Part shown: positions 42,563 through 46,660 of the stretch, piece after piece
Numbering within the stretch: the first letter of the stretch is position 1
Layout of the letters: every line of letters starts with the position of its first letter
Origin: Synechococcus sp. CC9605
Lineage (GTDB): Bacteria > Cyanobacteriota > Cyanobacteriia > PCC-6307 > Cyanobiaceae
Assembly (NCBI RefSeq): GCF_000012625.1
Contig: NC_007516.1
Span: forward strand, 2,108,001 to 2,172,000
Direction: 5' to 3'
DNA length: 64,000 nt
The notes under the pieces: generated by a model
Told to the model about the DNA's origin: nothing
The model's database searches: none
What the model saw: only the letters and a program-made list of their open reading frames with translations
Translations under genes and position numbers: made by a program

Positions 42563-42647
42563 CCTTGATCTTCAAGTGAACGGATTCTGTCAGTTCCGGC
42601 GTGATCAGGCCGCTTCGTAGGCTGATCTTTGGCCTGCCGGCGACGTG

Positions 42648-44024
42648 ATGACAAGCACCCCGACGAAACCGACGGTCGCCTTCGCCCACCTGGGCTGCGA
42701 GAAGAACCGGGTGGACACCGAACACATGGTGGGGCTGCTGGCAGAAGCCGGCTACGGCGTCAGCACCGATGAGAGCGATGCCGCCGTGGTGGTGGTGAAC
42801 ACCTGCAGCTTCATCCAGGACGCCCGCGAAGAATCGGTGCGCACCCTGGTGGAACTGGCGGAACAGGGCAAGGAATTAATCATCGCGGGATGCCTGGCCC
42901 AGCATTTCCAGGAGGAGTTGCTGGAGTCGATCCCTGAGGCCAAAGCCATCGTGGGAACCGGCGACTACCAGCACATTGTTGATGTGCTGCAACGGGTGGA
43001 AGTGGGGGAGCGGGTGAACCGCGTCAGCGCCGTGCCCACCTTTGTGGGCGACGAACACCTGCCCCGCCAGCGCACCACCGACCAGGCGGTGGCCTTCCTC
43101 AAAGTGGCCGAAGGCTGCGACTACCGCTGCGCCTTCTGCATCATTCCGAAGCTGCGGGGGGATCAGCGCAGCAGACCGATCGAATCAATCGTGGCCGAAG
43201 CCCATCAACTGGCAGCGCAGGGGGTGCAGGAGCTGATCCTTATCAGCCAGATCACCACCAACTACGGCCTCGACCTCTACGGCAAACCGAAACTGGCTGA
43301 GCTGCTGCGGGCCCTGGGGGACGTGGAGATTCCCTGGATCCGGGTGCATTACGCCTATCCCACTGGGCTGACGCCGGATGTGCTGGCGGCATACCGGGAG
43401 GTGCCCAATGTGGTGCCCTATCTGGATCTGCCGTTGCAGCACAGCCATCCGGAGATGCTGAGGGCGATGAACCGCCCCTGGCAGGCGGATGTGAACGACC
43501 GCCTGCTGGATCAGATCCGCGAGCAACTCCCCGATGCGGTGCTGCGCACCACGCTGATCGTGGGTTTCCCCGGTGAAACCGAGGAGCACTTTCAACACCT
43601 GATGGGCTTCCTCGAGCGTCAGCGCTTCGATCACGTAGGGGTGTTCACCTTCTCGCCGGAGGACGGCACGGCAGCAGCCGACCTGCCTGATCGTGTTGAC
43701 CCTGAGGTGGCGCAGGCCCGAAAAGATGCCCTGATGGCATTGCAGCAGCCCATTTCGGCAGAACGGAACAGCCGCTGGGTGGGGCGCACCGTCGACGTGT
43801 TGATCGAACAGCACAACCCCCAGACCGGCGAGATGATCGGACGCTGCGCCCGCTTTGCCCCTGAAGTGGATGGTGAAGTGCGGGTGCAACCCGGCGCCGA
43901 GGGGCAGCAGGCCGCACCGGGCAGCCTGGTGCCGGTGGAGATCACCGGGGCTGACATCTATGACCTGAATGGACAGATGGTGGGAGCCCGAGCGATGGTT
44001 GCCGCGATCAGAGCGGATGCTTGA
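42648..44024 (+). CDS. rimO: Ribosomal protein S12 methylthiotransferase RimO
   Basis: Adds a methylthio group to the conserved Asp of S12. N-terminal MTTase domain with three cluster cysteines ([25 protein letters not shown]), a radical SAM motif CDYRCAFC, and a C-terminal TRAM domain ([16 protein letters not shown] to the end). About 458 residues. An ATG at 42648 follows a GTG at 42645. The final TGA overlaps the TTG start of the first MFS gene. A broken copy of its 3' end reappears at 45.25 kb. Confidence 0.97.
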
Positions 44025-45250
44025 ACCTTCATTTGCTGTCGCGAAAGCGGCAGCGTCAGCTCTTCCTACTGACGTCCGGCATCAGCACAGCTGGATCCTT
44101 CGCCGGCATCACCGCCAAGGGCTGGATTCTTCTGGATGGCATGGGTGGGCCACTGGTATTGGCCTTGAACTTCGCGGCACTTTCCCTGCCGAGCCTGCTG
44201 GTGAGCGGAGTCGCCGGGGTTCGCACCGACAGGCTGGGATGCGAGCGGATGCTGATCCAAGCGCAATGGGGGTTATTGGCGGCGGCAATGCTGGGCGCGC
44301 TGGCGATCCCTCTGCTCGATGGTCAAGCCCAGGTACTGATGTTGCTCGTCAGCACCTTGCTCATGGGCGTTGCGGGCTCCTTCGAATCCACGGCCCGCAA
44401 CAAGTACTGCGCCCTAATCATTGATAAACCCGACCAATTGGTGACCTACCTCACCAGCTTTTCGGTCGTGTTCAACGTCGGCAAGTTGGTGGGTCCTCCG
44501 ATCGGTGGCTGGCTTGTCGCTCTCAAGGGTCCGTCCTGGGCCCTAGGAATTGACGCAGCCAGCTACCTGCTGCCGATTGCGACGGTTCTGTTTCTGTTAC
44601 ATCCCGATCGGTACCGGGAACAACGCAGTAACGATGGAGAACAGGGGAGCTTGCTGACGGCCTGGCGGCAAAGCGGATCCACCCTGCGAGGAGTGCTGAG
44701 CCTGACAGCCGTGTTGTGTCTGGTGGGCTTTTTCCACCCGGGGCTGGCTCCGTTGATGGCCGAAGCGATTCTTGGATCGGATCCCCGTGACCTCGGGATC
44801 TTCACCAGCGTGCTGGCGGCGGGGAGCATAAGCGGTGGTCTGGTGTTGCAACGCAACAGCGCACGCTTTTGTCGTTCGCCTTTTCTGACGATTGGCGGGT
44901 TCGGACTGATCACAGCGATCGCCCAACTCGGCATGGCGGCATCAACGGACGTGTCCGTGAGCCTGGCGATGGCCTTTTTGATCGGTGCAGGGACAGCAGG
45001 CTTACTCAGCAGTTGCAACCTGATAACCCAAGTGGGTGCCCCACAGGTCATCCGAGGACGAATGGGTGGACTGAGTCAGATCGCCTTCCTCGGCGGTGGT
45101 GGCCTCAGCGGTCTACTTGCAGCAATGTTGGTTCTCGCAACCAACCTGACAACGACCTATGCCCTGACAGGCGGAGTCGGTGTGGTGCTGGCTGTGCTGT
45201 GGATCTGGAAACGAGGTCGGCAGAGGCTTGAGCCGATCAGATCAACATGA
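44021..45250 (+). CDS. MFS transporter, tandem copy 1
   Basis: 409 residues, about 12 hydrophobic segments. It shows family features such as [17 protein letters not shown] after helix 2 (the usual MFS loop), [19 protein letters not shown] and [14 protein letters not shown]. It resembles the EntS-like exporter branch; the substrate is unknown. TTG at 44021 overlaps the rimO stop (TTGA). It is a close paralogue of the gene at 45352: the two align without large gaps over their whole length. Confidence 0.88.
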
Positions 45251-45355
45251 TGACCTTCTGCCGCCTGGAGAGCACCGAGGGCTGACTTTTACGACCTCAG
45301 CGGGCGGATTGTTGTTGCCCGCGCCATGGTGGCTGCAGCGAGACGCCAGGGTTGA
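45251..45355 (+). pseudogene. Remnant of the rimO 3' end (frameshifted duplicate)
   Basis: These bases align with the last roughly 100 bases of rimO. With one extra base around 45277-45280 removed, the region reads LEST-GADFYDLSGRIVVARAMVAAARRQG-stop, against rim[30 protein letters not shown]-stop. The final TGA (45353-45355) overlaps the TTG start of the next MFS gene exactly as in the intact copy. It is a fossil of the duplication that produced the two MFS genes. In its present state it encodes nothing. Confidence 0.85.
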
Positions 45356-46575
45356 CCCTTCTCAAACTGCGGCCTGAGCGACAACGGCAGCTTTTTCTGA
45401 TCGCATCCGGTGTGAGCACAGCCGGGTCGTTTGCCGGCATCACCGCCAAGGGCTGGATTCTGATGAAAGGAGGCGTGGATCCCTTCGTGCTGGCGTTGAA
45501 CTTCGCCGCTCTTTCACTGCCCACACTGCTGGTGAGTGGTCCAGCGGGAGTGCGCACCGATCGCGTGGGCTGTGAACGGGTTCTGGTTCAAGCGCAATGG
45601 GCACTGCTGGCCGCCTCTGGCCTGGGGGCCCTGGCGATTCCCCTGCTGGAGGGCACGGCTCAGGTGCTGCTACTGCTCTGCAGCACCCTTTTGGTGGGCA
45701 TCGCCGGAACCTATGAGATAACGGCCCGCAACAAATACTGCTCGATCCTGGTGGAGGAACCCGAAAAGCTGGCGGGCTATCTCACCAGCTTTTCGGTGGT
45801 GTTCAACATGGGCAAGCTGGTGGGCCCTCCGATCGGTGGCTGGCTGCTGGCGGCCACTGGCCCGGCCTGGGCCCTGGGCATTGATGCGGCCAGCTATCTG
45901 CTTCCCATTAGCAGTGTGATGTTGCTGCTCAGCCCAAATCGGGACCGGGAAGTGCGCAGCAGCGGCGGCGAAGACGCCAGCCTGCGCAACGCCTGGCGCC
46001 ACTGCGGCAGCACCCTGCAGGGGGTGCTCAGCTTCACCGGGGTTCTCTGTCTGATCGGGTTCTATCACCCGGGGCTGGCCCCATTGATCGCCTTCGATCA
46101 GCTGGGGCCGAAGCCCACGGATCTGGGTCTGTTCACCAGCGTGCTGGCAGGCGGCAGCATCGTGGGCGGCCTTGTGCTGCAACGCAACAGCCAGCGTTTC
46201 TGCCGGCGTCCTTTCCTAACCCTGGGAGGCTTTGGCTTGATCACCGCCGTGGCCCAGCTGGGAATGGCCTGCACAACAGGACCTGGCTTCAGCCTGGCGA
46301 TGGCCTTTCTCATCGGAGCCGGCACAGCTGGACTCCTGAGCAGCTGCAACTTGATCAGTCAGATCGGGGCACCGCAAGTGATGCGCGGTCGGATGGCCGG
46401 CCTTAGCCAGATCGCTTTTCTGGGCGGAGGCGGGCTCAGTGGGTTGATTGTGGCGTTGCTGGTGATGATCACTAACCTTTCCACGGCTTTCGTACTCACC
46501 GGGGGCCTCAGCGCTGCTGTGGCTGTGCTTTGGATTCGAAAGCGAGGCGCAAGGATATTGGAACCGCTCAGATGA
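45352..46575 (+). CDS. MFS transporter, tandem copy 2
   Basis: 407 residues, the same architecture as copy 1 with blocks identical or nearly so ([57 protein letters not shown]). Its TTG start keeps the overlap with the stop of the rimO remnant. Differences concentrate in loops and in the middle hydrophilic region (about residues 190-220). Both copies are intact, so both are probably used, perhaps with different substrates. The 3' end overlaps petL on the other strand. Confidence 0.88.
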   Translation: MTLLKLRPERQRQLFLIASGVSTAGSFAGITAKGWILMKGGVDPFVLALNFAALSLPTLLVSGPAGVRTDRVGCERVLVQAQWALLAASGLGALAIPLLEGTAQVLLLLCSTLLVGIAGTYEITARNKYCSILVEEPEKLAGYLTSFSVVFNMGKLVGPPIGGWLLAATGPAWALGIDAASYLLPISSVMLLLSPNRDREVRSSGGEDASLRNAWRHCGSTLQGVLSFTGVLCLIGFYHPGLAPLIAFDQLGPKPTDLGLFTSVLAGGSIVGGLVLQRNSQRFCRRPFLTLGGFGLITAVAQLGMACTTGPGFSLAMAFLIGAGTAGLLSSCNLISQIGAPQVMRGRMAGLSQIAFLGGGGLSGLIVALLVMITNLSTAFVLTGGLSAAVAVLWIRKRGARILEPLR

Positions 46576-46660
46576 GCTTGATTCCCTTCAGCAGCTTGGT
46601 GAGCACAAAAGCCGTCACCAGACCTGAACCAACCAGGCCGAGATAGATGCCGACGCCCAT
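46568..46660 (-). CDS. petL: Cytochrome b6-f complex subunit PetL
   Basis: A 30-residue single-helix protein from ATG 46660 to TGA at 46568. The product starts MGVGIYLGLVGSGLVTAF and ends in KGIKLI, a size and C-terminus typical of PetL, which sits at the periphery of the b6f dimer. It overlaps the end of the MFS gene by 8 bases on the opposite strand. A GGAGG-type site is not obvious upstream. The identity is judged from length, helix and ending. Confidence 0.8.
   Translation of the reverse strand: MGVGIYLGLVGSGLVTAFVLTKLLKGIKLI

Follow-up and report, generated by a model that had tools for sequence, protein, structure and literature searches.

An apparent tandem duplication of a transporter gene behind rimO in Synechococcus sp. 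CC9605 is very probably a foreign insertion that displaced the rimO end

Two similar MFS transporter genes that stand one after the other behind rimO in Synechococcus sp. CC9605 look like the result of a segmental tandem duplication. Our analysis indicates that this apparent duplication is very probably an insertion of foreign DNA, made up of a rimO tail, the upstream transporter gene (MFS1) and a scrap of the 3' end of petL. We favor this explanation because MFS1 and the present end of rimO are of a foreign type, while a relic of rimO found between the transporters and the downstream transporter gene (MFS2) are of the native type. The locus lies in a window of 64,000 nucleotides, the whole stretch of DNA that was analysed; below, G000 is the present genome and G003 a relative that also carries two copies.

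rimO, the gene of the S12 methylthiotransferase RimO (TIGR01125, 572 bits), occupies 42645-44024 on the forward strand, and its stop is overlapped by the TTG start of MFS1 (44021..45250, forward). MFS2 follows on the same strand at 45352..46575. Both transporters match MFS_1/MFS_3 of Pfam, with no NCBIfam model at cut-off for either, and they have 296 identical residues (409 aa in MFS1, 407 aa in MFS2). Convergent with MFS2 on the reverse strand is petL (46568..46660, 30 aa), recognized by NF008824 (33.4 bits, cut-off 25) and by reading the peptide by eye, the Pfam search giving no model at cut-off; it marks the original rimO-MFS-petL order. A mechanical repeat search returned an ungapped direct repeat of 300 nt (43948-44247 and 45279-45578; 69%, spacing 1331), and the rimO tail at 43925-44007 aligns with 45254-45341 with a score of 36.5, while 1000 dinucleotide shuffles of the spacer reached 22.5 at most. 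A sequence-only reading of this DNA had already seen the end of rimO before MFS2, and the alignment is real; its extent, however, is about 75-90 bases and not the whole spacer, because the bases from 45247 to ~45275 are closer to the antisense 3' end of petL, which lies downstream of MFS in relatives, than to rimO. Similarity to rimO in the spacer starts at ~45266-45279. The same reading was right that one extra base breaks the rimO frame of the spacer in G000 (CACCGAGGGC versus CACCGGGGC in rimO) and that the TTGA start/stop overlap is kept before MFS2; the G003 relic lacks the extra base of CACCGAGGGC, and its frame is open. It also took the rimO 3' end plus MFS for the duplicated unit. The repeat unit stands, but local duplication appears to be wrong and the direction reversed: the supposed second, derived copy, MFS2 with its relic, would be the native pair, and MFS1 with the present rimO 3' end the newcomers.

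The origin of the two transporters can be read from the MFS protein tree (37 rows; G030 was left out as its MFS is partial). Both MFS2 genes fall within clade A (99/99), and the rimO bodies of G000 and G003 also go with clade A in the rimO-body tree. The MFS1 pair branches separately, outside (98/93) all 27 remaining same-genus rows, which are 25 single copies and the two MFS2 genes. Copies made by tandem gene duplication should be mutually closest, or nearly so; a tree constrained to join MFS1 and MFS2 is worse by 66 log-likelihood units and is rejected (AU p = 1.6e-7). The loss is 53 units with MFS1 constrained to clade A (p 2.2e-5) and 8 units with MFS1 grouped with clade B (p 0.03 against); both clades were named for these tests after the tree had been seen. 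It should be noted that the MFS1 branch is long (0.34) and that this could pull MFS1 outward in the tree. MFS1 and MFS2 are separated by a near-saturated synonymous divergence (1.69 in G000, 1.50 in G003), and MFS2 stands at 0.36-0.60 from ten clade A genomes; by this measure MFS1 comes closest to G032 (1.10) and G027 (1.11) of clade B, and its best same-genus match is 77%. To judge from these sequences, MFS2 is the native copy and MFS1 a foreign (xenologous) one. The dN/dS ratios between G000 and G003 (0.125 for MFS1 and 0.139 for MFS2) indicate that both genes evolve under constraint.

A similar comparison was made along rimO with nine clade A and eight clade B genomes, which give 67 informative sites, the groups being named after the loci had been read (G026, with a partial rimO, was excluded from site counts and consensus and included in the 26-genome identity comparison). 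The rimO body (42645..43938, forward), identified by TIGR01125, is mainly of native type. At the 44 sites of 42645-43800, G000 has 33 native and 8 foreign states and G003 33 and 11, with some mixed signal within the body (5 native to 5 foreign at 43301-43600 in G003); at the 10 sites of 43801-43960 both genomes alike have 8 native, 1 foreign and 1 that is neither. Beyond 43960 the 13 sites are 1 native, 9 foreign and 3 neither, again in both (Fisher p 0.001 for 8:1 versus 1:9, 'neither' sites omitted). The relics before MFS2 are 12 native, 0 foreign and 1 neither in both genomes, a typing that is short, like that of the working tail, at 13 informative sites. In the final 69 bases, identity to the clade A consensus is 64/69 for the G000 relic and 61/69 for the G003 relic, 64-69 for the nine clade A genomes themselves, and 46/69 (G000) and 47/69 (G003) for the working rimO ends. 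Among the 26 genomes, the relics are closest to clade A (57-64 of 69, ten genomes), and the working ends to seven of the eight clade B genomes (52-57 of 69, versus 44-49 for the ten clade A genomes); the exception is G017 of clade B, which at 45 and 47 of 69 is no nearer to them than clade A. As a group, clade B comes from the MFS tree (92/91), and its members are scattered in the rimO-body tree; in the latter, whose bootstrap had not settled, G018 stands beside clade A (87/87). Site types and identities together argue that the working end (43973..44024, forward), which supplies a new RimO C-terminus and stop, is foreign, and that the relic (45279..45355, forward) is the old end displaced downstream.

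Both limits of the foreign DNA can be narrowed. On the left, the last native-type site is 43938 and the first foreign-type site 43973, with no informative site between, and the breakpoint is placed in this interval of rimO (43938..43973, forward). On the right, a DNA search with 45180-45360 gave two kinds of blocks in relatives: rimO-end blocks start at query base 87 (45266) or later, and blocks of MFS end plus petL end all stop at query base 96 (45275; G017, G006, G024, G015 and G028). The two kinds overlap at query bases 87-96 (45266-45275), and the junction of foreign petL end and native rimO is set at 45266..45279, where three letters, CAC, may have served as microhomology. In the stretch from 45247, petL ends align with 16 (G000) and 17 (G003) and clade A rimO ends with 9 and 5; because petL ends align better, the foreign unit is taken to include, behind rimO end and MFS1, a petL 3'-end scrap (45247..45275, reverse). 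The petL-end consensus matches there at 23/32 without gaps, a moderate figure; elsewhere on either strand of the window, the MFS2-petL junction excluded, one chance site (1300) scores as well and none better. The consensus comes from 20 downstream sequences, among them G021 and G007, whose low scores are due to wrong anchoring. A query with the whole junction matches end to end only in G000 and G003 among 34 same-genus genomes. Occurrence of the same spacer in genomes with one MFS gene, named beforehand as a result that would speak against duplication, holds in part: the 3' portion of the spacer is what close relatives with one MFS gene have as their normal rimO end, and the whole junction is not found in them.

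These observations can be explained by the following course of events. In the ancestor of G000 and G003 the genes would have stood as rimO-MFS2-petL. A rimO 3' end, MFS1 and ~25 bases of the petL end, coming from a different marine Synechococcus lineage, would then have entered the rimO end by recombination. The left side would be a homologous exchange in the conserved stretch 43938-43973, leaving RimO whole but with a foreign C-terminus; on the right, a short match would have joined the incoming DNA to the native end of rimO. That native end would thus be stranded between the MFS genes as a relic, together with the original start region of MFS2. One end within homologous sequence (43938-43973) and the other in non-homologous sequence (petL end against rimO, 45266-45279) is the arrangement by which homology-facilitated illegitimate recombination is defined in the cited passage of PMC3240628. 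We infer this mechanism or, equally, a circular intermediate; linear one-step, circle and two-event routes predict the same sequence. The reported rarity of such recombination counts against foreign insertion, illegitimate joining being given as orders of magnitude rarer than homologous exchange for other bacteria in the part of PMC5361080 that we cite. No donor was found in same-genus genomes or viral contigs, and MFS1 falls outside clade B (p 0.03), the very group that the foreign rimO end resembles most. A phage carrier was considered and rejected, with no MFS1 relative in viral contigs and one 24% match in phage records.

Over 24446-63982 of the window, most values of synonymous divergence between G000 and G003 are larger to the left of ~44 kb (0.085-0.347) than to its right (0.043-0.155); some of the frames compared are overlapping antisense ones. 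The step near 44 kb may be a second recombination boundary near the insertion. As these values vary from 0.04 to 0.35 along the window, dating by them was abandoned and no date is given.

Two full MFS copies occur only in G000 and G003 among the 34 same-genus genomes (G000 included, several incomplete), an MFS match being present in 28 and absent in 6; rimO lies directly before MFS in all 26 other same-genus loci that were read. G029 and G008, 99% and 98% complete, have no match, and for this reason the gene seems dispensable. G018 has, besides its own locus, a distant 29% match elsewhere. Among 400 family genomes, an even draw from a larger group, 188 have a match and none besides G000 and G003 has two copies. 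More than one match was seen in 12 of the 188, G000 and G003 included. For the second MFS1 matches of the ten others the copy count rests on a new search with MFS2, which left five with a single match and five with partial pieces; these are adjoining or slightly overlapping parts of the query, with one nested piece in G156, and we read them as one broken or split gene. In G127, a weak match, the search with MFS2 gave none. The broken or split genes belong to other genera of the family (L143, L144, L145, L146 and L147), which suggests decay in some lineages or assembly faults. A literature search found no paper that joins Synechococcus, rimO, major facilitator and tandem.

Local tandem duplication of the rimO 3' end plus MFS followed by fast change of MFS1, as the sequence-only reading proposed, would produce the tandem-repeat layout, and unequal exchange would give just such a joint of petL end and rimO. 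It is nevertheless highly improbable: besides the AU rejection of an MFS1+MFS2 clade (1.6e-7), the copies are separated by a near-saturated synonymous divergence of 1.69, ~2.8-4.7 times that between MFS2 and clade A (0.36-0.60). Relaxed selection on the protein is no explanation for MFS1, since it is synonymous divergence that is raised, and the foreign type extends beyond MFS1 to the working rimO end. Harder to set apart is a local duplication after which ordinary homologous recombination replaced the upstream copy and the rimO end with foreign DNA. The final pattern would be the same, and the greater frequency of homologous exchange over illegitimate joining (in the cited part of PMC5361080) speaks for it; still, we consider it quite unlikely, as it needs two events instead of one, and no case of two similar copies, its intermediate state, is seen in the 28 same-genus genomes with a match, some of them incomplete.

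The position of MFS1 just outside the genus set would also fit an old duplication, basal to the genus, after which every other sampled lineage lost MFS1. We find this barely credible, given the many separate losses it demands with no other two-copy genome among 400 of the family, 188 of them with a match. The relic, in addition, is identical to the working rimO end of clade A at 64 and 61 of 69 bases, whereas an old dead copy would have diverged from clade A; by this near-identity it was a working rimO end until recently. Foreign insertion thus remains by far our preferred explanation.

The layout resembles several described systems, as far as the cited parts of the papers present them. In the 'C-terminal displacement' of Rhs genes (Jackson et al. 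2009, PMC2935791) a foreign 3' end is placed on a conserved body, and the old 3' end is shifted downstream as a dissociated tip, sometimes frameshifted; native rimO body, foreign 3' end and old 3' end downstream repeat this here. Rhs systems, however, carry variable C-terminal tips in arrays, whereas in rimO the last residues of a housekeeping enzyme were apparently swapped once, probably as by-catch of the gain of a transporter gene. Arrays of T6SS orphan immunity genes, for which homology-facilitated illegitimate recombination was proposed as origin (Kirchberger et al. 2017, PMC5361080), likewise have a homologous anchor upstream and a non-homologous joint downstream, with the native gene kept and shifted downstream. 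Unlike there, the kept gene at the rimO locus is homologous to the incoming one, and the relic stems from the coding part of the anchor gene. The topology is also shared with T6SS effector displacement (PMC2935791, PMC5361080). The rimO locus is thus a well-resolved further example of an already known displacement topology, here in a housekeeping gene.

The displacement bears on translation of MFS2, which has no rimO gene upstream and retains only the last rimO codons. In 99 distinct junctions of the family the rimO-MFS overlap is TTGA in 81, GTGA in 12 and CTGA in 3, with no in-frame overlap in 3, including both two-copy loci, where MFS2 was taken as the downstream gene. TTGA or GTGA is thus kept in 93/99, as expected of a coupled pair. 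In L077, L079, L086 and L134 rimO and MFS do not overlap as TTGA/GTGA, by true loss or misplaced alignment. Such conservation is like that of pairs with termination-reinitiation at an overlapping stop and start (Huber et al. 2019, PMC6728339, in the part cited), where a Shine-Dalgarno motif is given for only ~40% of overlapping pairs in cyanobacteria; unlike in those pairs, the upstream gene of MFS2 is cut off to its last codons, and coupling is putative. A nine-codon frame inherited from rimO (MVAAARRQG, 45326..45355, forward) ends on the TTG start of MFS2, and its ATG-to-TTGA spacing is identical in 30/30 rows. The frame that starts on the MFS1 stop (ATGA) has 35 codons and is open to MFS2 in G003; in G000 the extra base closes it after 12 codons (45247..45285, forward), and the nine-codon frame remains. 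A simple consensus scan, which covers some promoter types only, found no promoter or terminator between the MFS genes at 44900-45480. MFS2 is plausibly translated from the start region that it kept, with ribosomes reinitiating once they have finished MFS1 or the nine-codon frame. That the relic is kept as a coupling cassette, with ribosomes passing from the MFS1 ATGA through the relic frame to the MFS2 TTGA, seems unlikely; if true, a defunct fragment of an enzyme gene would now serve as a relay in translation. Constraint on the relic was also considered and set aside: relics of G000 and G003 differ at 5/32 of the first and 1/37 of the last bases, all six differences lying at or before 45315, with a Fisher p of 0.089 for a split chosen post hoc.

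The locus shows how similar neighbouring genes in a single genome may be misread as duplicates, and how the direction of the event can be told from what is left of a displaced gene end. It also offers a natural test of translational coupling, in which the native MFS2 has lost the upstream gene with which MFS overlaps in nearly every relative examined, and yet evolves under constraint.
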